Shown: positions 8,036 through 34,090 of the stretch, one piece after another | Layout of the letters: the number at the start of each line of letters is the position of its first letter | Position numbering within the stretch: the first letter of the stretch is position 1 | Source of the DNA: Loktanella sp. DSM 29012 | GTDB lineage: Bacteria; Pseudomonadota; Alphaproteobacteria; Rhodobacterales; Rhodobacteraceae | Direction: 5' to 3' | Length of the DNA stretch: 36,933 nucleotides | Assembly (NCBI RefSeq): GCF_900110705.1 | Contig: NZ_FOEJ01000011.1 | Location: 1 to 36,933 of the forward strand | Position numbers and translations under genes: made by a program | The notes under the pieces: model-generated | The model's database searches: none | The model's input: only the letters and a program-made list of their open reading frames with translations | Told to the model about the DNA's origin: nothing

Positions 8036-8078
8036 TTGGCGGCGTGACACGTTGCTGACGGTGTGGGGGAGGATCATC

Positions 8079-9170
8079 ATGAGTACGATCTACGACGTGG
8101 CCAAGGCGGCCGGCGTTTCCCCCAAGACCGTCAGCCGGGTGCTGAACGGCGATGCGCCGGTCAAGGCAGAGACGGCCAAGATCGTGCACGCTGTGATTGC
8201 GGAACTGGGCTATGCGCCGTCATCGGCTGCCCGTGCAATGCGGTCCAACAAATCGGGGTTGATCGGCCTGATCACCGGCGCGATTTCTGTTGATGCGTCA
8301 CAACCTGACACGACGGGCCTGCCTGATCTATTCATCGTGCAAGGCGTCCAGAAAGCGATGGAGACCAGCGGAAAGACCCTGCTGATCGCCGATAGCGGTG
8401 GCCGCCCCGACAGGGTTCCGGGCCTGATGCGGACGTTTGAACAGCACAGGGTCGAGGGCATCATCTATGTCGCCGACCACCACCGCAGTGTTTCGCTGCC
8501 GCCGGTGTCGGCGCAGACACGGCTGGTCCTGGCGAACTGTTATGACGATACCGGCACGCCTTGTATCCTGCCGCACGACCGCAGGGGCCAGGAAATGCTG
8601 ATCGCCGATCTGATCGCAAAGGGTCATCGCCGTATCGCCTATCTGACGTTGAACGCCGAATTGGACGCGACGCGCCTGCGCACGCAAGGTTACCGCGATG
8701 CTTTGTCTGCTGCGGGCATCTCTTATGATCCTGAACTGGTGATCGTGGCTGGCATCGGCACGACCGATCAGGATGCCGAGGTGCAGATCCTGTGGGATGC
8801 CATCGATCGCATTCTGTCGCTTGACGTGCCGCCTACGGTCATCTGTTTCGGCAACGACCAGATGGCGATGCGCGCCTACGGGATCTTGCGGTCGCGCGGT
8901 CTGAACCTGCCGGATGACATCAGTGTCACGGGTTACGACAACTACCGCACGATTACCCAAACGCTCTACCCGACGTTGACGTCGGTAGAATTGCCCTATC
9001 ACGCCATGGGCGTGCGGGCGACGCAGCTGTTGCTGCGCATGATCGACGATGCCGATGACGTGCCGGTTGCGCCGGTGCTTGTCAGCGGCCCCGTACAGAG
9101 CGGTCAGTCCGTGAGGACCATGCCGACACCTATCACCAAACTGACGTCAATCGGGAGGATGACACAATGA
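8079..9170 (+). CDS. LacI-family transcriptional regulator
   Basis: A 363-residue LacI-type repressor and first gene of the sugar operon. Residues 1-50 hold the helix-turn-helix and hinge (TIYDVAKAAGVSPKTVSRVL, then RAMRSNKSGLIGLI), followed by a periplasmic-binding-protein-like effector domain (residues about 60-340) with the ICFGNDQMAMRAYGILRSRG segment typical of the family. ATG 8079 is used because GGGGGAGG lies a few bases upstream; an in-frame TTG nine codons earlier lacks a site. Its stop overlaps the binding-protein start (ATGA at 9167-9170), indicating translational coupling. It probably binds the tandem operators at 8008-8035 and is released by the transported sugar or a derivative. 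Confidence 0.92.
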   Translation: MSTIYDVAKAAGVSPKTVSRVLNGDAPVKAETAKIVHAVIAELGYAPSSAARAMRSNKSGLIGLITGAISVDASQPDTTGLPDLFIVQGVQKAMETSGKTLLIADSGGRPDRVPGLMRTFEQHRVEGIIYVADHHRSVSLPPVSAQTRLVLANCYDDTGTPCILPHDRRGQEMLIADLIAKGHRRIAYLTLNAELDATRLRTQGYRDALSAAGISYDPELVIVAGIGTTDQDAEVQILWDAIDRILSLDVPPTVICFGNDQMAMRAYGILRSRGLNLPDDISVTGYDNYRTITQTLYPTLTSVELPYHAMGVRATQLLLRMIDDADDVPVAPVLVSGPVQSGQSVRTMPTPITKLTSIGRMTQ

Positions 9171-10432
9171 AAATGCGAACAACCCTAGGCGCGGCCCTGC
9201 TGGCCACGACCGGCTGGGCCACGATGGCCGCAGCCCAGACCGAACTGTCCATGTGGTATCACGGTGCTGGCAACCCGCAAGAAGCCGAAGTGCTGAACCA
9301 TATCGTCGCGGATTTCAACGCCAGCCAGTCCGACTGGAACGTGGTCGTCGAGAGCTTTCCGCAGGAAAGCTATAACGACTCTGTCGTTGCGGCCGCCCTC
9401 GCAGGCAACCTGCCTGACATTATTGACGTCGACGGCCCCGTCATGCCGAACTGGGCCTGGTCCGGTTATTTGCAGCCGTTGCAAATCGACGAATCCACGA
9501 TCGAAAACTTTCTACCCGGCCCCAAGGGCTACTGGGACGGAGAGCTGTATTCCATTGGCCTGTGGGACGCGGCCGTCGCTCTTGTGACGCGCCAGTCGAT
9601 CCTGGACGATCTGGGCCTGCGCACGCCGACGCTGGAAGAACCCTGGACGCTGGAAGAATTCAACGCGGCACTGGATGCAGCAAAGGAGTCAGGCAACTTT
9701 GAGTATGCGCTTGATCTGGGCATGGCATGGACCGGCGAATGGTATCCCTATTCGTTCAGCCCGTTCCTGCAATCCTTTGGTGGCGATCTGGTCGATCGTG
9801 ATACCTATCAGACCGCCGAAGGCGTGCTGAACGGCGAAGAGGCGATGGCCTTCGGTGATTGGTGGCAGGGCTTGTTCGCGAATGATCTGGCACCCGGCAC
9901 CAGCCAGGATCCCGCAGCCCGCGAAACCGGTTTTCAGGACGGCAAATATGCCTTTAGCTGGAACGGCAACTGGGCGGCGATGAACATCATGAACACCTTC
10001 GAAGATACGGTGTTCCTGCCCGCCCCGGATTTCGGCAATGGCCCCAAGATCGGCGCGGCAAGCTGGCAGTTTGGCGTGTCCTCGGCATCGGAACATCCTG
10101 ACGGCGCGTCCGCTTTCATCGAGTTCGCGTTGCAGGACGAATATCTCGCCGCGTTCTCGAACGCGATTGGTCTGATCCCGCCCACGACATCATCGGCGCA
10201 GATGACCGAGAACTATCAGGACGGCGGCCCGATGGCGGTGTTTTATGACCTGACCGAGGCGCAAGCGATGGTCCGCCCCGTGACCCCCGGCTACGTGGTC
10301 CAGGCAAAGGTCTTTGAAAAGGCGCTGGCCGACATCGCAAACGGTGCTGACGTTGCCGACACGCTGGATGCTGCGGTGGACGAAATCAACGCCGACATCG
10401 AGCGCAACGCGGGCTACGGCCACACCGAGTAA
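9167..10432 (+). CDS. Sugar ABC transporter, periplasmic binding protein (family 1)
   Basis: A 421-residue extracellular solute-binding protein. A Sec signal peptide covers residues 1-23 (LGAALLATTGWATMAAAQ), after which the mature protein begins with TELSMWYHGAG. The two-lobed family 1 fold is suggested by the early NHIVADFNASQSDWNVVVES segment, LPDIIDVDGP, and Trp/Tyr-rich sugar-stacking stretches (WTGEWYPYSFSPF, FSWNGNWAAMN). It delivers an oligosaccharide or disaccharide to the permeases encoded next. A stable hairpin follows the stop, which may keep this transcript more abundant than the permease messages. Confidence 0.92.
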   Translation: MKMRTTLGAALLATTGWATMAAAQTELSMWYHGAGNPQEAEVLNHIVADFNASQSDWNVVVESFPQESYNDSVVAAALAGNLPDIIDVDGPVMPNWAWSGYLQPLQIDESTIENFLPGPKGYWDGELYSIGLWDAAVALVTRQSILDDLGLRTPTLEEPWTLEEFNAALDAAKESGNFEYALDLGMAWTGEWYPYSFSPFLQSFGGDLVDRDTYQTAEGVLNGEEAMAFGDWWQGLFANDLAPGTSQDPAARETGFQDGKYAFSWNGNWAAMNIMNTFEDTVFLPAPDFGNGPKIGAASWQFGVSSASEHPDGASAFIEFALQDEYLAAFSNAIGLIPPTTSSAQMTENYQDGGPMAVFYDLTEAQAMVRPVTPGYVVQAKVFEKALADIANGADVADTLDAAVDEINADIERNAGYGHTE

Positions 10433-23691: not shown

Positions 23692-24456
23692 CTAACGGGC
23701 GAGCCAGCCGCCATCGACGGTGACGGTGCTGCCGTGGCAATACGATGCGGCGTCGGAGGCCAGAAAGACGGCGGCCCCCGCGATTTCGGATGGTTCGGCA
23801 AAGCGGCCTGCGGGAATGCGGTCCAGCAGGGCCTGCGATCGGTCTGGATCGTCGCGCAATGCCTGTGTGTTGTCCGTGGCGGTGTAGCCAGGCGCGATGC
23901 TGTTCACATTGACCCCGTGCGGCCCCCATTCGTTGCAAAGCGCCTTGGTCAAACCGACGACCGCGTGCTTGCTGGACGCATAGGCCGGAACGCGCAGACC
24001 GCCCTGAGAGGCCAGCACCGACGACACAATGATGATCTTGCCAGACCCTTGGGCCACCATGCGCTTGCCAGCGGCCTGGCTCAGCAACCAGACGGAATCG
24101 AGGTTCACCGACAGCACGCGCCGCCAATCCTCGAGTGGCATGTCGGTACTGTCCTCGCGGTGAATGATGCCCGCGTTGTTGACCAGAATATCCAGCCCGC
24201 CCAAGGCGTCACTGGCAAAGCTGATGACCTCCTCAGCCGCCGCCTTGTCCATCCCGGAAAAGTCGGCCTTCACGGCGGCACCCTTGACGCCGAGAGCTTT
24301 GACTTTGGCCAGCGTTTCATCGGGGGCATGGCTGCGGTAGGTCAGCGCCACATCGGCCCCGGCGGCGGCAAGGCCGAGGGCAATGCCCTCGCCGATGCCG
24401 GTTGCCCCGCCGGTGACCAATGCGCGACGACCCGTCAGATCGAACGGATTGCCCAT
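23692..24456 (-). CDS. kduD: SDR oxidoreductase, KduD-like (2-dehydro-3-deoxy-D-gluconate 5-dehydrogenase type)
   Basis: A 254-residue short-chain dehydrogenase with TGGATGIGEG, NNAGIIHREDS, the catalytic Ser in VSSVLASQGG and YASSK. The combination of GIIHREDS, LASQGGLRVPAYASSKHAVV, GLTKALCNEW, ATDNTQALR and the ending VDGGWLAR is the KduD pattern; KduD interconverts 2-keto-3-deoxygluconate and its 2,5-diketo form in pectin and alginate-type uronate catabolism. Related 2-deoxy-D-gluconate 3-dehydrogenases look alike. It lies one base from the M24 gene and 11 bases from the next SDR in the minus arm. The role in this island is probably oxidation of another hydroxyl of the same sugar acid. Confidence 0.82.
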   Translation of the reverse strand: MGNPFDLTGRRALVTGGATGIGEGIALGLAAAGADVALTYRSHAPDETLAKVKALGVKGAAVKADFSGMDKAAAEEVISFASDALGGLDILVNNAGIIHREDSTDMPLEDWRRVLSVNLDSVWLLSQAAGKRMVAQGSGKIIIVSSVLASQGGLRVPAYASSKHAVVGLTKALCNEWGPHGVNVNSIAPGYTATDNTQALRDDPDRSQALLDRIPAGRFAEPSEIAGAAVFLASDAASYCHGSTVTVDGGWLAR

Positions 24457-24457
24457 C

Positions 24458-25768
24458 TCAGTAACGGTTCGCGATGGGCAATTCTTCGGCCGGGAACAGG
24501 CTGATGACCTCGCAGCCGGTTTCCGTCACGACGACTTCTTCCTCGATCCGTGCGGCGGAATAGCCGTCGGTGGCGGGGCAGTAGGTTTCAAGCGCGAACA
24601 CCATGCCGGTCTTGATCTCCATCGGGTGATCCATCGACACGGCGCGGCTGATGATCGGGCGTTCATGCAGTGCCAAGCCCAGACCGTGGCCGAATTGCAG
24701 ACCGAACGCCTGATCTTCGGTCTCGAACCCCAATTCCTGCGCCGTTGGCCAGACCGCGGCCACCTTGTCGGTGCTGACGCCCGGTTTGATCATCGCGATG
24801 GATGCATCGATCCATTCGCGCGCCTTGACGTAGGCATCGTTCTGCGACGGCGTCGCGCGGCCCACGTTGAAGGTCCGGTAGTAGCAGGTGCGGTAGCCCT
24901 GATAGGATTGCAGGATATCAAAGAACGCCTGATCGCCCGGCCGGATCAATCGGTCGGTGAAGTTGTGCGGATGCGGGTTGCAGCGCTCTCCGGAAATGGC
25001 GTTGATCGCCTCGACGTCGTCGGATCCCATCTCGTAGAGCATCTTGTTTGACAGCGCGACGATGTCGTTTTCGCGCACGCCGGGTTTCAGCTCTTCGTAG
25101 ATCATGTGGTAGACGCCATCGACCATGGCCGCAGCCTGCGTCAGAAGCTGGATTTCGTCCCAGTTCTTGATCTCGCGCGCCGATAGCATGATTTGCTGAC
25201 CGTCGACGATGTTCAGGCCTTCCTCTTTCAGCGCGTGGAACATCGCGGTTTCGGCATAGTCCACGCCGACCGGCATATCGCCCATGCCCGCATCGCGGAT
25301 CAGACCCGCAATCTGCTTGGCGTATTTCTGCATGAGACCGAACTCGGGCGGGATCGTGCCGCGCATGCCGACGACACCGGCCAAACAATGCGACGGCTCC
25401 AGCCAGTCGGAATGGCGCTTGTGATGCTGTGCGGCGGACCCAAAGTCCCAGACGTAGGGGCTTTCGTCGCCGGTCAGCAGACAGAAACGGCACATCTTGT
25501 CCCGTTCCCATTCGCCGATCTTGGTCGCCGACACGTAGCGGATGTTGTTCACGTCGAACAGCAGCAGGGTGCCTGCACCGGACGCCTTCAGCGCCTGTTC
25601 GGTCCGGGCAAGGCGGTAGCGGCGCAGGCGGTCGTGGTCGATGCGGCGTTCGAAATCGACGGACATGTGACCGTGGGCAGGCAGCTTGTCGCGCCATTCC
25701 CAGTTCGGCTCCAGATCCATCGGGGTGAGAAGGTTCGGCATAAGGGCATTGCCCGGACGTTCTGACAT
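24458..25768 (-). CDS. M24-family (creatinase/aminopeptidase P fold) protein with substituted metal ligand
   Basis: A 436-residue two-domain protein: an N-terminal creatinase-type domain (about 50-200, LLLFDVNNIRYVSATKIGEW, VWDFGSAAQHHK) and a C-terminal pita-bread domain (about 205-430). The usual dinuclear ligands would be Asp, Asp, His, Glu, Glu. Asp284 (AFFDILQSYQGY), His361 (FGHGLGLALHE), Glu394 (ALETYCP) and Glu409 (ARIEEE) are kept, but the second Asp, expected in a GYxxDxxRT context, is Cys295 (GYRTCYYRTF). The overall look recalls non-peptidase members such as creatinase, ectoine hydrolase DoeA and the DMSP lyase DddP of roseobacters. Being inside a sugar-catabolic operon, a hydrolytic or lyase role on a small molecule is more likely than peptide cleavage; the reaction is unknown. 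Confidence 0.82.
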   Translation of the reverse strand: MSERPGNALMPNLLTPMDLEPNWEWRDKLPAHGHMSVDFERRIDHDRLRRYRLARTEQALKASGAGTLLLFDVNNIRYVSATKIGEWERDKMCRFCLLTGDESPYVWDFGSAAQHHKRHSDWLEPSHCLAGVVGMRGTIPPEFGLMQKYAKQIAGLIRDAGMGDMPVGVDYAETAMFHALKEEGLNIVDGQQIMLSAREIKNWDEIQLLTQAAAMVDGVYHMIYEELKPGVRENDIVALSNKMLYEMGSDDVEAINAISGERCNPHPHNFTDRLIRPGDQAFFDILQSYQGYRTCYYRTFNVGRATPSQNDAYVKAREWIDASIAMIKPGVSTDKVAAVWPTAQELGFETEDQAFGLQFGHGLGLALHERPIISRAVSMDHPMEIKTGMVFALETYCPATDGYSAARIEEEVVVTETGCEVISLFPAEELPIANRY

Positions 25769-25833: not shown

Positions 25834-26643
25834 TTAGGTCGTCGCCCAGCCGCCATCGATAGAGATCATCTGGCCGGTCATGTAGTCGCTGTCATCCGAA
25901 ACGAGGAAAGACGCGGTGCCGACGATATCCTTGGGGTAGGACACCCGCTTGATGACCAAGGCGCTGTTGACGATATCCTCGTAGGCTTGGCCTTCGCGCT
26001 CTTTGAAGCCGATCTCGACCAGGTCCTTGTCAAGCTGCTCCCACAGCGGTGTGACCACAACGCCCGGCGCATAGCCGTTGACGGTGATGTTGTGTTCCGC
26101 CAGCCCCAGCGCGCCGCATTCGGTCAGGGCAAGGCAGCCGTATTTCGACGTGCAATAGACGGTGACGTCCACCAGCGGCTTCTTTGACGCGATGGAGCCT
26201 ACGTTGATCAGCTTGTAGGGGTGATCCTCCATCGGGCCCTGCTTGATCATCTGGCGGGCGACTTCCTGCATGCCCAGCCACATCGCCTTGGTGTTGACGT
26301 TCATGATCATGTCCCAGTTGTCTTCATCGATATCCATAAAGAACCGGGGCTTGTTCAGACCTGCATTGAACACGCCAACATTGATGGACCCGAATGCCTC
26401 GACGGTCGCGGCAACGGCGGCGGCGTTGTCCTCACGCTTGGTCACGTCCATCCTGACTGCAATCGCGCGGCCGTTGCCGGCGGCATTGATTTCATCCGCG
26501 ACGGATTGCGCCATGTCGAGGTCAAGATCGCCGATGCAGACATTGGCACCCTGTTCGGCAAACGAACGTGCGTTGGCTTCTCCCATGCCGCGTGCGGCAC
26601 CGGTGATGAGAATGTTTTTACCTTCAAGGCGATTGGGGTCCAT
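25834..26643 (-). CDS. SDR oxidoreductase (sugar/polyol dehydrogenase-like)
   Basis: A 269-residue classical short-chain dehydrogenase with TGAARGMGEA, the NAG motif in FNAGLNKPRF, catalytic Ser in NVGSIASKK and YCTSK. It shares unusual stretches with the SDR of the plus arm at 29748-30545: DNWDMIMNVN versus DNWNFIMGVN, GMQEVARQMIKQG versus GMQEAARQMIAQG, and GVVVTPLWEQLDKDL versus GVVATEMWEQVDQDL. The pair are therefore paralogues. It lies 24 bases after the fused regulator gene and is the first enzyme of the minus arm. Polyol (sorbitol or galactitol) or sugar C1 dehydrogenase activity is plausible; the substrate is not known. Confidence 0.87.
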   Translation of the reverse strand: MDPNRLEGKNILITGAARGMGEANARSFAEQGANVCIGDLDLDMAQSVADEINAAGNGRAIAVRMDVTKREDNAAAVAATVEAFGSINVGVFNAGLNKPRFFMDIDEDNWDMIMNVNTKAMWLGMQEVARQMIKQGPMEDHPYKLINVGSIASKKPLVDVTVYCTSKYGCLALTECGALGLAEHNITVNGYAPGVVVTPLWEQLDKDLVEIGFKEREGQAYEDIVNSALVIKRVSYPKDIVGTASFLVSDDSDYMTGQMISIDGGWATT

Positions 26644-26667: not shown

Positions 26668-28404
26668 CTAACTTCGTGATAGGATGGCGTCCGCGCGACC
26701 TTGCGCGCGGCGCAGGGCGTCCTGCGGGGTAATGATCCCGCGGAGCATGTCGTGAAATTCCTCGCCACAGATCTGGATGATCTGGTCGATCTCAGGGACC
26801 GGCGGGCGCGGCCAGAATTGCAATTCGTCGCGCCATGACATCGCATCCACCGCCTCAAAGATGGGCGACAGGCGCTGCACATCGGGGTCCGATCCGACGG
26901 AATAGCGCGGGTTCGTCCGGCTGCCGTTCTGCACATACATCTTCTGGGCCGCGGGCGAGGTGAAGGCCAGCAGCGCCTCCACCGCGGCCGGAATCCGGTC
27001 TTCGGCCAGATTGGCCGGAATCCCCATCAGGTATCCCCCCACGGGCGCAATAGGCGCGCCGCCTGGCCCAGCGGGATGCGGCAGGTATCCGGTCTGGTCC
27101 TTTGCTGGCGATGCCTCGTCCAGCTCGAAGTAAGGCGCAAGCAGGGTATAGCCGTAGGCCATCGCGATCCGGCCTGCCGCGTAGGGGCGGATGCGTTCAT
27201 ACCAGGACATCGACAGGATATCAGGCGGCGAATACTGCAACAGGTCCTTGAGGAACTGCGCCGCCTGCAATCCCGCAGGCGTGTCGATGGTCACGCGGTA
27301 GTCACGTTCAGCCAGATCCTTTGTCTCGAAGCCGCCGGCGTTCGGCTTGAGGTCAAGAACTGGCTGGCCAAAGTCGGCCAGTGTCATCAGCACCGTATGG
27401 CCAAGAGCCGTGCCGCGCGCCGCGTTCCAGGCGATCCCGTGAATCCCGCGATGCGGATCGTGCAGCGCCTTTGCGGCACGCAGCAGATCGCGCGTCGTGG
27501 CGGGCGGCTCCAGTCCCGCCTTCGCGAGCAGATCCTTGCGATAGAACAGCAGTTCCGGCGTGGTCTGTGCAGGCACGCCGTAGGCACGACCACCCCAATG
27601 CACAGCCTGCCATCCCGCCGTGTGGAAATCCGACGGGTCGATCCGCCCGATATCCATGATCTGGTCCAGCGGCATAAGGACATTTTGCTGCGCAAAATCG
27701 CCCACCCAAGGCAGGTCTACGGCGATGATGTCGTAGGCACTCGCCTTGCGTTCGGCGTTGCGCATGATCTCGGTGCGCAGGCGGTCGATTGAAAAGGCGC
27801 GCTGGTGAATTTGCGTGCCGATCGTCTGTTCGAATTGACGTTTGAGGTTGTCCATCACCATGAACGTCGGGTCGCCATGCACCAGAACGCGTAGCCCGCC
27901 GGGCAGCTTCAGCGGGCTTTGAAGCACCTTCATCGGCGGGATCGATTTGGCGGTCAGATATGAATCGCCGTAGTAGTAATCGGACACGTCCGCCGCGACG
28001 CTGCTGCCAAATTGCGTGACGGCGAGGCGCTGCACCCGCTGCGTCAGCTGGGTCCACTGGTCAAGAAGGGCCATGCTTGGATGCAGGGAAAAGCTTTTGC
28101 CGGTGGCGGTGCGCGGCCGTTGGTCGATCAGCCCTGCTTCCTGCATGTCCTTGATGCGGCGGTTGGCGGTGGCATAGGGGGCGCGACTGGCCCCGATCAG
28201 CGACGTCATGGTGACAAGCCGCCCTTCGATGTGTCCGCGGATCAGATGCATGGAAATGCGCAAGTTGGGACTTGCCGCGAACAGATCCGACGCACTTTCC
28301 AGCTCGTCGCCAAGGCTTTCCATGAACGACAGGACACTCACCATGTCCGCCTTGACCTGAGGCGGCACGACAAGGTCGAAATTTTCCCCCCTCATCACGT
28401 TCAT
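26668..28404 (-). CDS. Fused regulator: N-terminal winged helix-turn-helix plus ABC solute-binding-protein domain
   Basis: A 578-residue protein from ATG 28404 (ATG 28395 or 28497 are alternatives; the frame is open to 28620). No signal peptide or membrane helix, so cytoplasmic. Residues about 45-115 form a MarR-like winged helix: VTMTSLIGASRAPYATANRR, IKDMQEAGLI, then a basic wing DQRPRTATGKSFSLHPS. Residues about 165-560 look like a full family 1 extracellular solute-binding protein: LRVLVHGDPTFMVMDNLKRQ, YDIIAVDLPWVGDFAQQNVL, the lobe-crossing GGRAYGVPAQTTPELLFYRK, DLLAKAGLEPPATTRDLL and the C-terminal VEALLAFTSPAAQKMYVQNG. This resembles a transcription regulator that senses sugar with an importer's binding domain. 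It opens the minus arm and faces the transporter genes across a 44-bp dyad. The adjacent importer uses a different (RbsB-type) binding protein. Confidence 0.88.
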   Translation of the reverse strand: MNVMRGENFDLVVPPQVKADMVSVLSFMESLGDELESASDLFAASPNLRISMHLIRGHIEGRLVTMTSLIGASRAPYATANRRIKDMQEAGLIDQRPRTATGKSFSLHPSMALLDQWTQLTQRVQRLAVTQFGSSVAADVSDYYYGDSYLTAKSIPPMKVLQSPLKLPGGLRVLVHGDPTFMVMDNLKRQFEQTIGTQIHQRAFSIDRLRTEIMRNAERKASAYDIIAVDLPWVGDFAQQNVLMPLDQIMDIGRIDPSDFHTAGWQAVHWGGRAYGVPAQTTPELLFYRKDLLAKAGLEPPATTRDLLRAAKALHDPHRGIHGIAWNAARGTALGHTVLMTLADFGQPVLDLKPNAGGFETKDLAERDYRVTIDTPAGLQAAQFLKDLLQYSPPDILSMSWYERIRPYAAGRIAMAYGYTLLAPYFELDEASPAKDQTGYLPHPAGPGGAPIAPVGGYLMGIPANLAEDRIPAAVEALLAFTSPAAQKMYVQNGSRTNPRYSVGSDPDVQRLSPIFEAVDAMSWRDELQFWPRPPVPEIDQIIQICGEEFHDMLRGIITPQDALRRAQGRADAILSRS

Positions 28405-28530
28405 ACCCCCGGTTGCAGCCTTTCGCTTTGCGTGGCCTTGGCCACGTGAATTGTTCGATTTGGATGATTTTGAAATCGTCACTAGATGTGCCCTCATGTA
28501 GACGCGGGTTGGTTGCCGGAATATATCGCG

Positions 28531-28574
28531 AAAATATCCAGGTCGGACTAATATTAATCCATTATGGATATTTT
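28531..28574. promoter_or_regulatory. 44-bp concentric dyad, candidate operator of the fused regulator
   Basis: Outer arms AAAATATCCA (28531-28540) and TGGATATTTT (28565-28574) are perfect inverted repeats. Inside, GGACTAATATTAATCC (28545-28560) is a 16-bp palindrome with one mismatched pair and exactly the same centre (between 28552 and 28553). The region is markedly AT-rich for this window and sits between the two divergent arms, where it could control both. Repeated ATCC/GGAT half-sites suggest multimeric binding. Confidence 0.6.
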
Positions 28575-28700
28575 TTGTGACGCCCACAGGCCGCACGCCG
28601 GGCAAGGTCGTGCCAGTCACACCGGCATGCCGGAGGGTGATTCCCCTTGGGAGAGTGGGGACAGGACATCAAAGTCCGAGACATCTTGGAGGAGATAACA

Positions 28701-29669
28701 ATGACACTACGCACAATCCTGACCGCGACGTCTGCAACAGCAGCGTTGGCCATTGCCGGGTCCGCTTATGCAGAAGCCCACAGCCCGATGCGGATCGGCA
28801 TCACGCAGAACAACGTCGGTGTGGACAGTTACCAGACGACCTATGAAAACGCGTTCATCGCCGCAGCAGAAGCCAATGAGAACGTCGAAGTCGTCGTTCT
28901 GGACGCAGGCGGCGACGTGGCCCGCCAGATCGCCCAGATGGAAGACCTGATCCAGCAGGAAGTCGATGCCATCATCATCTGGCCGACAAACGGCGAAGCC
29001 GTCATTCCCGCCGTCCGCAAGGCCGCACAGGCCGATATCCCGGTTGTCGTGACCAATTCCAACATCGCCGAAGCCGGTTTCGATTTCGTCGCGACGTTCT
29101 CTGGCCCTGACAACATCACGCAGGGATCGCGTTCTGCCGAGATCATGTGCGACCGCTTCAAGGCCCTTGGCATCGAGAACGAGGCTCGGGTGGTGCAGAT
29201 TTCAGGCCAGCCCGGCTACACTACGGCGATCGAGCGTCAAAAAGGCTTTGACGACCGTCTGCCCGAGGTTTGCCCGAACGTCACGCTCGTCGAAACCCAG
29301 CCAGGCGACTGGAACCGTGAAAAGTCCCAGCAGGTGATGGAAGCTTTCCTGGTCAAGTATGACGACATCGACGGTGTCTATGCCGGCGACGACAACATGG
29401 GCGTCGGCGCATTGAACGCTGCCCTGGCCGCAGGGCGTGCCGAGGGCATCACCTTTGTCGGCGCAACCAACTTTGCCGTCGGATACGAGGCGATGGAGCG
29501 TGGAGAGTACTGGGGTTCGATCTATCAGTCGCCAGTGGACGACGCCGAGGCGGCGCTTCAGTCCGCGATTGATCTGATCAACGGTGAGGAACTGCCGTTC
29601 CTGAACTATTTCGACACGCCGAAGATCACGCAGGACAACATGTCTGACTTCACGAAGCCCGTATTCTAA
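28701..29669 (+). CDS. Sugar ABC transporter, periplasmic binding protein (RbsB-type)
   Basis: A 322-residue periplasmic binding protein, start ATG 28701 chosen by GGAGGA 8 bases upstream (the open frame begins earlier without a site). The signal peptide is residues 1-24 (LTATSATAALAIAGSAYAEA). The mature part is the two-lobed Peripla_BP_4 fold of ribose, galactose and related sugars: MRIGITQNNVGVDSYQTTYE, DLIQQEVDAIIIWPTNGEAV, GQPGYTTAIERQKGFDDRL, DGVYAGDDNMGVGALNAALA. It is the first gene of the plus arm and presumably delivers the island's substrate to the permeases at 30591-32579. Confidence 0.92.
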   Translation: MTLRTILTATSATAALAIAGSAYAEAHSPMRIGITQNNVGVDSYQTTYENAFIAAAEANENVEVVVLDAGGDVARQIAQMEDLIQQEVDAIIIWPTNGEAVIPAVRKAAQADIPVVVTNSNIAEAGFDFVATFSGPDNITQGSRSAEIMCDRFKALGIENEARVVQISGQPGYTTAIERQKGFDDRLPEVCPNVTLVETQPGDWNREKSQQVMEAFLVKYDDIDGVYAGDDNMGVGALNAALAAGRAEGITFVGATNFAVGYEAMERGEYWGSIYQSPVDDAEAALQSAIDLINGEELPFLNYFDTPKITQDNMSDFTKPVF

Positions 29670-29747: not shown

Positions 29748-30545
29748 ATGGGACGTGTGACTGGACGGTCGTGCATCGTCACCGGTGCTGCACAGGGCAT
29801 TGGCCGCGGCATCGCAGAGGCGCTGCTGGACGAAGGCGCTGACGTTTGTTTTGCGGATATCAACGGTGACAAGGTGAGAGATGTCGCGCAGGCGAACACC
29901 GACAGAGCGGCGCGCAACGGTGGCAAGGTCACCCACGCACAGGTCGATGTGACCGACAGGGCTTCCGTCAAAGCGATGATCGCCCATACGGTCGAGGTCT
30001 TCGGCAAGCTGGACGTGAAATTCAACAACGCCGGCGTGAACAGACCCATGAATTTTCTGGACGTCACCGAGGACAACTGGAATTTCATCATGGGCGTTAA
30101 CGGGCTGGGCTGCATGATCGGCATGCAAGAAGCCGCCCGGCAAATGATCGCCCAGGGCACGGGTGGCAAGATCGTCAATACCGCTTCGATCGCCAGCCGT
30201 CAGGGATTTGACAACGTGGCACCCTATTGTGCCAGCAAATTCGCCGTGGTCGCGTTGACCCAATCAGGTGCGCGCGATCTGGCAAAACACAATATCACCG
30301 TCACAGGCTTTGCGCCGGGCGTCGTCGCGACCGAGATGTGGGAGCAGGTCGATCAGGACCTGATGGCAATCGGTGCCGCGGAACGACCCGGACAGGCGAT
30401 GGAAGAGTTCTCGTCCGAAATCCTGCGCGGCCGCGTCGCGAAAACCGAGGATATCACGGGAACGACGACCTATCTGGCGTCGAAAGACAGCGACTACATG
30501 ACCGGTCAGATCGTCATGATCGATGGTGGCATGACTTTGGTTTGA
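29748..30545 (+). CDS. SDR oxidoreductase (sugar/polyol dehydrogenase-like), paralogue of the minus-arm SDR
   Basis: A 265-residue short-chain dehydrogenase: TGAAQGIGRG, NNAGVNRPMNF, catalytic Ser in NTASIASRQ and YCASK, ending YMTGQIVMIDGG. It resembles the enzyme at 25834-26643 over the whole length, including the DNWxxIM, GMQEAARQMI and WEQVDQDL segments. Lying between the binding protein and permease genes, it probably carries out the first oxidation of the imported sugar or polyol. Which of the two paralogues acts at which carbon cannot be read from the sequence. Confidence 0.87.
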   Translation: MGRVTGRSCIVTGAAQGIGRGIAEALLDEGADVCFADINGDKVRDVAQANTDRAARNGGKVTHAQVDVTDRASVKAMIAHTVEVFGKLDVKFNNAGVNRPMNFLDVTEDNWNFIMGVNGLGCMIGMQEAARQMIAQGTGGKIVNTASIASRQGFDNVAPYCASKFAVVALTQSGARDLAKHNITVTGFAPGVVATEMWEQVDQDLMAIGAAERPGQAMEEFSSEILRGRVAKTEDITGTTTYLASKDSDYMTGQIVMIDGGMTLV

Positions 30546-30590
30546 CGAACGCCTGACAGGGCAGGGTCTTTGGCCCGTGGGAGGGGAAAT

Positions 30591-31565
30591 ATGGCGAGCA
30601 TGACGAAAGCAGACATCGGGGGGATGCTGGCGCGGCAAGGCATCTTGATTGCCTTTGCGGTTTTCATCATCGGATTTACCATCGCGAACGACCGGTTTCT
30701 AAGCCCTGACAACGTGATGGGCGTCATCCGGTCTTCTGCGATCCTCGGGGTCATGGCGCTCGGCGTGACCTTCGTGGTGATCAGTGGGAACCTTGATTTG
30801 TCCGTGGGGTCGATGATGTCGTTTTCGACAATCGTCGTTCTTGATTTGCACGACAAGATTGGCCCGTTCCTAGCGATCCCGGCGATGTTCGCGATGACGC
30901 TGTGTCTTGGCGCGTTCATCGGGTTTCTCGTCGGTTACCTGAAACTGAACTCTCTCATCGTGACACTGGGGATGCTATCGGCGATCCACGGTCTGACGCT
31001 GACCTATTCTGGTGGTCAGAATATGGACATTGCTGACAAGGAAGGCACCTGGTTCGGCGTTTTTGGTCAGGGGTCCGCTTTGGGCATTCCTGTGCCCATC
31101 CTGATTTTCCTGGCCTTGGCTGCATTATTGGGCATCATCCTCGCGAAAACGGCGTTCGGGCGAAAGGTTTACGCCGTGGGCGGAAACGGCACCGCCGCGA
31201 CGTTTTCCGGGATCAAACGCGCCCGCATCGTGTTCCTCTGCTACATCATGTCGTCCGCCTGCGTGGCCGTAGCGGGCCTGATACAGGCGAGCCGGTCGAT
31301 GGGGTCGCAAAACACAGTGGGGCAGGGGCTTGAACTGGATGTCCTGGCTGCTGTGATCTTGGGTGGCGCGTCACTGCTCGGCGGGTCCGGCACGATTTTC
31401 AAGACCGTCATTGGCGTGCTGATTCTTGGTTTCATCCAGAACGGTCTGCTGCTGCTTGGGCTGCAATTCTATGTCCAGAACGTCGTGACATGGGTCATCA
31501 TCATTCTTGCGGTCTGGCTCGATATCGCGGCCAAACGTGGCAAGCTTTGGTCAAACATCGCGTAG
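30591..31565 (+). CDS. Sugar ABC transporter permease (RbsC-type)
   Basis: A 324-residue permease from ATG 30591, with GGGAGGGG upstream; the frame opens seven codons earlier without a site. About ten hydrophobic helices with the BPD_transp_2 pattern: VTFVVISGNLDLSVGSMMSF near the N-terminus and, toward the end, LDVLAAVILGGASLLGGSGT, the conserved coupling region of RbsC-type permeases. It is followed by a second, related permease, so the channel is probably a heterodimer rather than the RbsC homodimer. Confidence 0.92.
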   Translation: MASMTKADIGGMLARQGILIAFAVFIIGFTIANDRFLSPDNVMGVIRSSAILGVMALGVTFVVISGNLDLSVGSMMSFSTIVVLDLHDKIGPFLAIPAMFAMTLCLGAFIGFLVGYLKLNSLIVTLGMLSAIHGLTLTYSGGQNMDIADKEGTWFGVFGQGSALGIPVPILIFLALAALLGIILAKTAFGRKVYAVGGNGTAATFSGIKRARIVFLCYIMSSACVAVAGLIQASRSMGSQNTVGQGLELDVLAAVILGGASLLGGSGTIFKTVIGVLILGFIQNGLLLLGLQFYVQNVVTWVIIILAVWLDIAAKRGKLWSNIA

Positions 31566-31577
31566 GGGAGCGGGAAG

Positions 31578-32579
31578 ATGGAAGCTGGAAATCTGTCCAA
31601 AATTCTGAAGAACAGCGCGATCTGGGGTTTTATCGTGCTCGAGCTGATTTTCTTCAGCATCGCTGGTGAATTCCTGTCGCTGTCCGACAAGGCGTTCATG
31701 GATGTCGACAACATGCTGTTGCTGCTCAAACAATCCGCCCCCATCGGCATCATCGCCATGGGCATGACCATCATCATGGTCAACGGCAACATCGACCTGA
31801 GCGTCGGCGCGATCTTTGCACTGTCTGCGGTGATCCTGCTGGATAGCCTGTCGTGGTCAGTCTTTGCCGGTCTGGGCGATTGGGTCATCCCGGTGTCATG
31901 GACGCTGGCCCTGCTGACCGGCGTTGCTCTGGGCGCGATCAACGGGTTGATCGTTTGGAAAACCGGTGTCGATGCTTTCATCGTCACGCTGGGTTCGATG
32001 CTGGGCTTTCGCGGTCTGGTGTTCATGTATAATGGCGAAAACCCTACCTCGAGCCTCAACTGGACGCTCGTTGATTTTGCAGAGGCGCAGTTCCTGGGCT
32101 TTCACACGGCCACCTGGTTTCTGGCCGTCGTCACGCTGATCATCTGGTATATCATGACCCGCACCGTCCACGGGCGGAACGCCTACGCCATCGGTGACAA
32201 CCGCGAGGCCGCGGTCAATGCAGGCATCAAGGTCGGCCCGCACATGCTGATCAATTTCATGATCATCGGTTTCCTGTCGGCGCTGTCTGCGGTCGTGTTC
32301 TATTCCGAGTCCGGCTCGGTCAATCCGAACGACGGCCAGCTTTATGAGTTGTGGGTCATCACGGCGGTCGTGCTGGGCGGAACCAAGCTGACCGGCGGCT
32401 CGGGTTCGATCGTGTCCACGCTGGGCGGTGTCCTTGCCATTCAGTTGTTGCGCAAGGGGCTGGGACACATCGGTGCCGACACTTCTACAGTCAATCTAGT
32501 CATCGGCTTGATCCTGATCGCCGTCCTGTTCCTGGACCGCCAGTTGAACGCCAAGGGCAAAGAGGAGTTGAAGATATGA
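31578..32579 (+). CDS. Sugar ABC transporter permease (RbsC-type), second subunit
   Basis: A 333-residue permease of the same BPD_transp_2 family. MTIIMVNGNIDLSVGAIFAL and ELWVITAVVLGGTKLTGGSG correspond to the same two signatures in the first permease. It starts 12 bases after the first permease stop and its own stop overlaps the ATPase start by four bases. Together they form the membrane channel for the sugar bound by the 28701-29669 product. Confidence 0.92.
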   Translation: MEAGNLSKILKNSAIWGFIVLELIFFSIAGEFLSLSDKAFMDVDNMLLLLKQSAPIGIIAMGMTIIMVNGNIDLSVGAIFALSAVILLDSLSWSVFAGLGDWVIPVSWTLALLTGVALGAINGLIVWKTGVDAFIVTLGSMLGFRGLVFMYNGENPTSSLNWTLVDFAEAQFLGFHTATWFLAVVTLIIWYIMTRTVHGRNAYAIGDNREAAVNAGIKVGPHMLINFMIIGFLSALSAVVFYSESGSVNPNDGQLYELWVITAVVLGGTKLTGGSGSIVSTLGGVLAIQLLRKGLGHIGADTSTVNLVIGLILIAVLFLDRQLNAKGKEELKI

Positions 32580-34090
32580 CCGATCACATTCCCGCCTTGC
32601 GGCTTGAGGGGATCGTCAAGACGTTCCCCGGTGTGCGCGCCCTGGATGGTGTAGCCCTGTCGGTCATGCCCGGCGAGGTGCATGCCCTGATGGGCGAAAA
32701 TGGGGCCGGAAAATCGACCCTGATGAAGGTGTTGGGCGGTATCTATCAGCCCGACGAAGGTCAGATCATCGTGTCAGAGGTGCCGACGGTCATGACCTCG
32801 CCGCTACAAGCGAAATCAAAGGGCATCGTCTTTATCCATCAGGAGCTCAGCCTGGCCGAGGAATTGACGGTCGCGGAAAACATCTACCTTGGCGAATTGC
32901 CGCGCCGGTCGTTCGGACGCGTGGATTGGACGATGCTTTATGCGCAGACCGATGCGATCCTGAAAAAGCTCAAGGTCGGGTTCAACGCAAAAACCATTGT
33001 TGGTGATCTGTCGATCGCCAACCAGCAAATGGTCGAAATCGCGCGCGCGCTGACCGTCGATGCCAAGGCCGTCATTTTCGACGAACCCACAGCGTCCCTG
33101 ACCGACGCGGAAAAGGTCGTGCTGTTCGACGTGATCTCTGACCTGCAGGCGCAGGGTGTCGGGATCATCTATATTTCCCACCGGATGGAGGAAATCTTCA
33201 AGATCACCGACCGGATCAGTGTTCTGCGCGACGGATCCTATCGCGGCACTCTGAACACCCGCGACACGACCGAGGAAGAGGTGACCCAGCTGATGATCGG
33301 CCGCGCGCTCGATTTGACGCGCAACGAAAGCCACCACACGCTCGGCGATGTCGCACTCGAGGTGCGCGGCCTGTCCTGTGGTGATCTTTTCAAGGACGTC
33401 AGTTTTGAGGTGCGGCGCGGCGAGGTTCTGGGCTTTTACGGCCTGGTCGGCGCGGGTCGCACCGAGATTGCCGAGACGCTTTTCGGCCTGCGCGACCCTG
33501 ACGGCGGTGTCATTCTACTGGACGGTGAAGAGGTGCGCGTCACCTCGCCGGCGGATGCGATCAGCAAGGGCATTTCGCTGGTGCCCGAGGATCGCAAGGG
33601 GCAGGGCCTCGTGCTGGGCATGAATTGTCGGGACAATATGACCCTGCCGCAGGTCGGCAACTTGTCGTCCGGCCCCTTCGTCGCACCCGGCGCGGAAACG
33701 GCGATTTTTGACAAGTATAAGGAAAAATTGGATATCCGCACACCAGGATGGAAGCAAACGGTGGGCAACCTGTCGGGCGGCAACCAACAGAAGATTGTCA
33801 TTGGCAAATGGCTGTCGATGAATCCCAAGGTGTTGATTGTGGATGAACCGACACGCGGCATCGACGTTGGTTCGAAATCCGAAATTCACACCCTGATCCG
33901 CGAGCTGGCGGCCCAAGGCTATGCCGTCATCGTCGTCAGCTCTGAAATGCCTGAGGTTTTGCACGTCAGCGACCGCATCGTCGCGATGTTTTCTGGCCGT
34001 GTCATGCGGACCTTCACGTCAGACGAGGTGACCGAAGAAAGTCTAATTCAGGCAATCTCAGGGATAGCCCCCACCCAAAAGGTGGCGTAA
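32576..34090 (+). CDS. Sugar ABC transporter ATP-binding protein (RbsA-type, two ATPase domains)
   Basis: A 504-residue tandem ATPase from ATG 32576, which overlaps the permease stop (ATGA); the longer open frame to 32351 only shadows the permease gene. Domain 1 has Walker A GENGAGKSTLMK, signature LSIANQQMVEIARAL and Walker B AVIFDEPTASL; domain 2 has a degenerate Walker A VGAGRTEIAET, signature LSGGNQQKIVIGKWL and Walker B VLIVDEPTRGID. The degenerate second P-loop is normal for the RbsA/MglA group. The stop is directly followed by the next ATG (TAAATG). Confidence 0.94.
   Translation: MTDHIPALRLEGIVKTFPGVRALDGVALSVMPGEVHALMGENGAGKSTLMKVLGGIYQPDEGQIIVSEVPTVMTSPLQAKSKGIVFIHQELSLAEELTVAENIYLGELPRRSFGRVDWTMLYAQTDAILKKLKVGFNAKTIVGDLSIANQQMVEIARALTVDAKAVIFDEPTASLTDAEKVVLFDVISDLQAQGVGIIYISHRMEEIFKITDRISVLRDGSYRGTLNTRDTTEEEVTQLMIGRALDLTRNESHHTLGDVALEVRGLSCGDLFKDVSFEVRRGEVLGFYGLVGAGRTEIAETLFGLRDPDGGVILLDGEEVRVTSPADAISKGISLVPEDRKGQGLVLGMNCRDNMTLPQVGNLSSGPFVAPGAETAIFDKYKEKLDIRTPGWKQTVGNLSGGNQQKIVIGKWLSMNPKVLIVDEPTRGIDVGSKSEIHTLIRELAAQGYAVIVVSSEMPEVLHVSDRIVAMFSGRVMRTFTSDEVTEESLIQAISGIAPTQKVA

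Follow-up and report, generated by a model that had tools for sequence, protein, structure and literature searches.

One gene in the window (the whole 36,933-nucleotide stretch of Loktanella sp. DSM 29012 DNA that we analyzed) very probably encodes, as judged from sequence comparison and structural modeling, a MarR-like winged helix followed by a linker and a whole SBP_bac_1 solute-binding protein (SBP) domain. Its frame is open throughout on the minus strand and codes for 578 residues (Table 1). We consider it likely that the product is a cytoplasmic one-component regulator that would use the winged helix on tandem DNA dyads and the complete transport-type SBP as its ligand sensor, thereby controlling an importer–SDR operon as well as its own operon. 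With less assurance, we lean toward the broader view that the protein represents a class of one-component regulators that has been overlooked and that occurs in Alphaproteobacteria and, sparsely, outside them. This class would descend from a single event in which a MarR-like winged helix was joined to a complete CUT1-class receptor, its several clades would govern catabolic operons for sugars, cyclitols and phenol-linked compounds, and it would have been hidden by the name 'extracellular solute-binding protein'. Both folds, the lack of a visible export signal, the conserved fusion, the gene neighborhood and the conserved tandem dyad are well supported by computation; we infer cytoplasmic location, DNA binding, dimerization, ligand binding and the identity of the ligand.

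Table 1. Features of the regulator gene and its surroundings (window coordinates; counts refer to the 80 orthologous loci described in the text).
Feature	Position	Strand	Details
HTH-SBP regulator	26668..28404	-	578 aa from ATG start
Possible basic N-terminal extension, 26 residues	28405..28482	-	In-frame GTG at 28482
MarR-like winged-helix DNA-binding domain (predicted), flanking helices included	28009..28362	-	Residues 15-132
Predicted recognition helix	28138..28176	-	Residues 77-89
Linker	27904..28008	-	Residues 133-167; pLDDT <50 at 133-152
Whole two-lobed SBP_bac_1 (MalE/UgpB-class) sensor	26671..27903	-	Residues 168-578
Predicted operator, two dyads	28537..28568	.	28537-28547 and 28558-28568; 21-bp repeat
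RbsB-class (Peripla_BP_4) ABC importer receptor, divergent from regulator	28701..29669	+	79/80 loci
SDR dehydrogenase (SDR_c)	29748..30545	+	71/80 loci
CUT2-type importer: two permeases and ATPase	30570..34090	+	Permeases 30570-31565 and 31578-32579; ATPase to 34090; starts provisional
SDR dehydrogenase (SDR_a), directly downstream of regulator	25834..26643	-	78/80 loci
M24 (creatinase/DddP-like) protein	24458..25768	-	74/80 loci

Pfam searches of the whole protein matched SBP_bac_1 at residues 220–487 (E = 4.4e-29; 102.9 bits against a cut-off of 26) and SBP_bac_8 (1.7e-22), which were the only two families listed at E values up to 1; both were present in 27 of 27 family members. PADLOC gave no match. 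The closest solved chain by sequence was the trehalose/maltose-binding protein 1eu8 (3.9e-28, query residues 195–575), followed by the sugar receptor 5iai (3.7e-27, query residues 171–572). A full transport receptor thus begins near residue 168. A Foldseek search with the full-length AlphaFold2 model (pLDDT 81.9) matched whole SBPs, with TM scores by target of 0.89 (5iai) and 0.85 (1eu8). The Pfam and Foldseek matches thus bear out the description, in an earlier note on this DNA, of a binding-protein domain of about 400 residues belonging to the MalE/UgpB class. The same note had held that the sensor was not borrowed from the adjacent importer, and this was also correct: the neighboring receptor is of the RbsB class (Peripla_BP_4), which rules out derivation of the sensor from that receptor. 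Two distant members of the family (L133 and L136) adjoin a CUT1 importer that is served by a separate receptor of the SBP_bac_1 type, and that receptor is only remotely related to the sensor.

AlphaFold2 modeling of the N-terminal domain alone, using an N-terminal alignment, gave a pLDDT of 89.6 and a pTM of 0.83. The model comprises helices at residues 15–38, 46–59, 66–73, 77–89 and 111–132 and strands at residues 93–97 and 105–109, and the full-length model repeats these elements. The MarR-like winged helix that the earlier note had placed at about residues 45–115 corresponds to the core of this predicted domain; the opposite outcome, an N-terminal part lacking a winged helix, did not occur, and the fold was instead predicted at high confidence. 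The top Foldseek chains for the N-terminal model were mostly of the MarR family (MexR, PefR and HcaR), with modest scores (best E = 9.3e-4, one match at or below 0.001, TM about 0.5 and rmsd mostly 7–14 Å).

At the level of sequence the N-terminus of the window protein fell below every curated Pfam cut-off, with MarR_2 the best at 14.1 bits against 27. Across the family, when E values up to 5 were allowed, the MarR_2 model matched 18 of the 27 full-length members (lowest E = 2.8e-5); with N-terminal pieces and E values up to 1 it matched 21 of 26 (lowest E = 1.2e-5). It lay below its own cut-off in each member whose individual table was inspected. Of seven more members scanned, two (L137 and L127) scored above the curated cut-off of HTH_IclR. 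An alignment of 38 sequences (the window protein and 37 of the 80 loci) showed the first 14 residues to be variable, with conservation from about residue 15 onward and with P76, A78, R82 and R83, at the predicted recognition helix, invariant.

The orthologous loci were collected by scanning one genome per species (84,980 species) for short peptide patterns and keeping the best 80 of 259 relatives; these 80 are 67–85% identical to the window protein and keep the fusion throughout. Conservation of gene order, which the earlier note had proposed as a check, was found in 79 of the 80 loci, where the regulator is divergent from the RbsB-class receptor gene. At the sole locus without a receptor gene (L071), the sequence breaks off 450 bp upstream of the regulator match. 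The importer permeases are present in 75 and 74 of the 80 loci and the ATPase in 73, while a kduD-like SDR, a second SDR and an FMN enzyme each occur in 31–34 of them; all counts of neighboring genes include loci cut by contig ends. Median identities are 83–91% for the importer, SDR_a, SDR_c and M24 genes and 71% for the regulator, which is thus less conserved; a 6-phosphogluconate-dehydrogenase-like gene falls below the regulator (64%, 21 loci). The SDRs, FMN-dependent dehydrogenase, M24 protein, FAH-type hydrolase and ThuA suggest that the substrate of the operon may be a sugar or polyol. The M24 protein scored 123.5 bits against the NCBIfam DddP model, for which the cut-off is 600, and it travels with the regulator into distant genomes (about 65% at L095 and L096, 60% at L157).

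Alignment of the divergent intergenic regions revealed that the dyad reported in the earlier note at 28,531–28,574 is present and is in fact a tandem pair of dyads. The resulting pattern, TCCRNNNYGGA-N10-TCCRNNNYGGA, has 16 specified positions and a repeat of 21 bp, equal to two turns of DNA. We counted it over 80 such regions (that of the window and 79 others, leaving out L071, whose contig lacks the receptor gene). Scored by its best site, a region had no mismatch in 28 cases, one in 35, two in 14 and three in 3, which places 63 of the 80 at no more than one mismatch. All 80 had a site with at most three mismatches in 16, as compared to 8 of 400 dinucleotide shuffles; since we derived the pattern from the very regions, themselves related, in which it was then counted, and the shuffles ignore kinship, this 80 of 80 demonstrates conservation and not independent discovery.

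The core of the predicted operator lies 132 bp from the ATG of the importer receptor, 132 bp from the ATG of the regulator and 54 bp from the upstream GTG. A sigma-70-like promoter was not recognized around it, and a terminator scan was likewise empty. In the 3.4-Mb genome of the organism this operator is the sole zero-mismatch site, with one more site at one mismatch; its uniqueness is only modest evidence, because the reversed control pattern matched three forward and three reverse sites at up to one mismatch, against two for the true pattern. A second match to the pattern within the window, with two mismatches, is found at 24,248–24,279. A blastn search of the 296-bp intergenic region against 72,556 plasmid records returned a single match, which corresponds to the operator (28,524–28,575) and at E = 0.07 is weak when taken alone.

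Among 19 further family members, described below, the tandem site was found with one mismatch upstream of L129 and L130 and with three upstream of L131. L130/L157 lies outside the class; its regulator is 52% identical, and its importer genes 75–82% identical, to those of the window. Upstream of the remaining 16 the tandem site was not found, with at least 24 of 200 shuffles matching as well. Related dyads were seen at L093 and L095/L096: a looser pair precedes the operon of the paralog in the organism's own genome, and a TATTCANNNTGAATA dyad stands at L095/L096. The failure of 16 of the 19 further members to keep the exact site would fit a regulator that acts elsewhere, with the tandem dyad being the site of another protein. 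We regard this as unlikely, given that the dyad stands at the divergent start of the regulator in all 80 regions, that the only exact site in the genome is this one and that it is kept outside the class, and that none of the 18 genes read on the homologous Phaeobacter plasmid is annotated as another regulator. The importer operon beside the predicted operator is instead probably under the control of the HTH-SBP regulator.

In the mechanism that we propose, a presumed dimer of the MarR-like winged helix would bind each of the two TCCR-N3-YGGA dyads, which lie two helical turns apart between the regulator gene and the divergent importer operon. The C-terminal SBP would close on a small sugar-like or polyol-like ligand, which could be either the imported compound or a product of the neighboring dehydrogenases. 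Closure would alter DNA binding or promoter contact, and the altered contact would control both the importer–SDR operon and the regulator's own operon, with the protein acting as a repressor or as an activator. A cytoplasmic DNA-binding protein might also use its SBP domain to contact a partner protein, such as an importer subunit, and not a free ligand, as could be argued purely from the evolution of the SBP fold for docking on permeases. To this we assign a slightly smaller chance still than to a site belonging to another protein: the adjacent CUT2 importer has a receptor of the RbsB class, so that a domain of the MalE/UgpB class is not expected to dock on it, and where family members adjoin CUT1 importers, their sensors do not resemble the receptors of those importers. 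On the reading as a ligand sensor, a whole MalE-class receptor can be converted to a cytoplasmic sensor, which bears on the evolution of regulators from transport proteins, and its large, ready-made ligand pocket could be of use for biosensor work. The conserved pairing of operator and gene makes the claim testable in culturable marine bacteria.

The architecture has counterparts among several known protein families. LacI/GalR proteins are regulators of sugar metabolism whose sensor resembles a transport receptor, and they combine a PBP-I (RbsB-like) sensor with a LacI helix-turn-helix. The window protein resembles them as a putative sugar regulator with a receptor-like sensor; neither the LacI helix-turn-helix nor Peripla_BP_1/3 was listed for it by Pfam at E up to 1. 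The term 'sugar-sensing', as used in the earlier note, is one that we infer from the receptor class and the neighboring genes. MarR proteins are usually small and lack a separate sensor domain; the window protein resembles them, with modest scores, in the predicted fold of its N-terminal domain and the flanking helices, but differs in having a large sensor domain attached. Its entire C-terminal domain resembles the CUT1 solute-binding proteins (1eu8 and 5iai), from which it departs in that an export signal is not visible, a winged helix is fused to it and the neighboring importer is not of the CUT1 type.

LysR regulators also carry a winged helix. Their companion domain is mainly PBP-II-like (PMC5882156), and the likeness to the window protein lies in this pairing of a winged helix with a PBP-II kind of domain; the window protein differs in that its sensor, at about 410 residues, has the full size of a transport SBP, and neither HTH_1 nor the LysR substrate domain was listed for it (Pfam, E up to 1). 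The contrast with LacI alone, as drawn in the earlier note, is incomplete in omitting LysR proteins with their PBP-II-like companion domain (PMC5882156). More generally, many domains with SBP Pfam signatures are described, in a survey of solute-binding proteins (PMC9602780), as the sensor domains of sensor kinases, transcriptional regulators and other receptors.

A further parallel is found in DsvR of Vibrio, a homolog of SgrR, in which a helix-turn-helix is joined to SBP_bac_5 (PMC13060122). The window protein has the same order, with the helix-turn-helix at the N-terminus and the solute-binding domain following it, but its sensor is SBP_bac_1 rather than SBP_bac_5 and its gene adjoins a CUT2 importer and dehydrogenases rather than sgrS/setA. 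Neither SBP_bac_5 nor SgrR_N (PF12793) was listed for it by Pfam at E up to 1, and SgrR_N gave a weak match (12.7 bits against a cut-off of 24) in the distant member L137. The passages on SgrR in a review of SgrS (PMC4021124) contain no account of its domains. The nearest known kinds are thus SgrR (helix-turn-helix and SBP_bac_5) and LysR (PBP-II sensor). The suggestion in the earlier note of a separate, little-described class is in this respect overstated: the fusion of a helix-turn-helix to a solute-binding domain has a precedent in SgrR/DsvR (PMC13060122). The window protein itself does not match the domains that define SgrR, LacI or LysR proteins. In the open-licence literature we recognized nothing that describes a winged helix–SBP_bac_1 fusion, nor any experiment on the family. 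Firmicutes may also have proteins in which SBP_bac_1 is joined to a helix-turn-helix of the GntR type, and such fusions, if real, would reduce the novelty of the window protein.

The occurrence of the family is patchy across the sampled genomes. Counting the organism's own genome each time, matches were found in 23 of 196 genomes of the order (at 1e-60), in 9 of 289 genomes of the class (at E = 1e-20) and in 6 of 398 genomes of the phylum (at 1e-50), one of these last being outside the class. Three of the nine class matches (G056, G065 and G128) comprise the receptor part only and, with the N-terminal domain absent, were ruled out as family members. The organism's own genome contains a second copy at 33% identity, and two of its 15 SBP_bac_1 matches have the N-terminal domain by profile. 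The HTH-SBP architecture was found in 19 further distinct proteins, among which L129 and L131 are orthologs; the more distant relatives are 25–52% identical, keep the same architecture and reach Paraburkholderia. In the pool of sensor matches from which these 19 came, those with E values of 4e-68 or lower all have the N-terminal domain, and those at 8.6e-57 or higher all lack it. In a tree of the sensor domains, built from 27 HTH-bearing rows together with 9 ordinary receptors, one change best accounts for the split between the groups (support 90/85; 91% of bootstrap trees). The tree favors a single origin of the fusion but, with the ordinary receptors few and long-branched, does not establish it.

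The translation start may be the in-frame GTG at 28,482, which would add 26 residues to the protein. Each of the 80 regions has an in-frame ATG, GTG or TTG 20–35 codons upstream with no stop codon between, and in the examples inspected these upstream start codons follow a purine-rich stretch. The divergence at the three codon positions upstream of the ATG is nevertheless flat (0.36, 0.29 and 0.36 in eight close relatives), with no excess at the third position, and the start may be either the ATG or the GTG. In the window the N-terminus is hydrophilic from either one.

Hydropathy and inspection of the 200 residues that follow the upstream GTG, taken as residue 1, revealed no signal-peptide-like stretch. 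Within this region the most hydrophobic 15-residue stretch scored 1.16, as compared to 1.61 and 1.56 at the starts of two exported receptors; a third exported control, the window receptor at 9,167, scored only 1.25, so that the hydropathy measure is weak by itself. The absence of a signal peptide noted earlier is therefore upheld, with one of three controls scoring hardly higher. The 200 residues scanned extend past the start of the receptor domain, and a downstream start with a signal peptide did not appear.

Plasmid records gave 36 matches, of which 34 span 80% or more of the query, with identities of 25–75% and with many near-copies among them. Twelve of the plasmid matches are from Phaeobacter, and others are from Skermanella, Agrobacterium, Rhizobium, Sinorhizobium, Shinella, Aminobacter and two Paraburkholderia records. 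Among the 34 full-length matches, 28 carry an annotated name (26 'extracellular solute-binding protein', one 'ABC-type sugar transport system, periplasmic component' and one hypothetical) and six are unlabeled; none is named as a regulator. These 26 names and the one periplasmic name, together with the completeness of the SBP domain, would suit a conventional exported SBP whose N-terminus had been extended in error, which we reject as highly improbable given that the region from about residue 15 is conserved as protein in the aligned orthologs and distant members, that it is modeled as a winged helix with no signal-peptide-like stretch by hydropathy and inspection, and that the adjoining importer has its own receptor of a different class. 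On our preferred reading as regulators, the HTH-SBP proteins have been systematically misnamed; filed as exported receptors, they would drop out of regulator counts.

Inspection of nine of the matching regions revealed ABC importer genes in seven. An intradiol ring-cleavage dioxygenase is encoded in five of the nine, near distant family members (L132, L134, L136, L138 and L139), and a maleylacetate reductase is also found near L134, L136 and L139, which hints at hydroxyquinol catabolism. Two genomes (at G302:C50 and G368:C13; L127 and L128) each contain two differing HTH-SBP paralogs about 6 kb apart on opposite strands, and these genomes also carry an ortholog elsewhere. In Phaeobacter inhibens an orthologous cluster (L131) is located on the 61-kb plasmid pP92_e, followed by genes for a 2-oxoacid dehydrogenase complex (E1 alpha, E1 beta, E2 and lpdA) and a succinate-semialdehyde dehydrogenase. 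The window itself contains, at 8,052–10,432, a LacI regulator beside an ordinary SBP_bac_1/SBP_bac_8 receptor, a conventional counterpart to the HTH-SBP protein.
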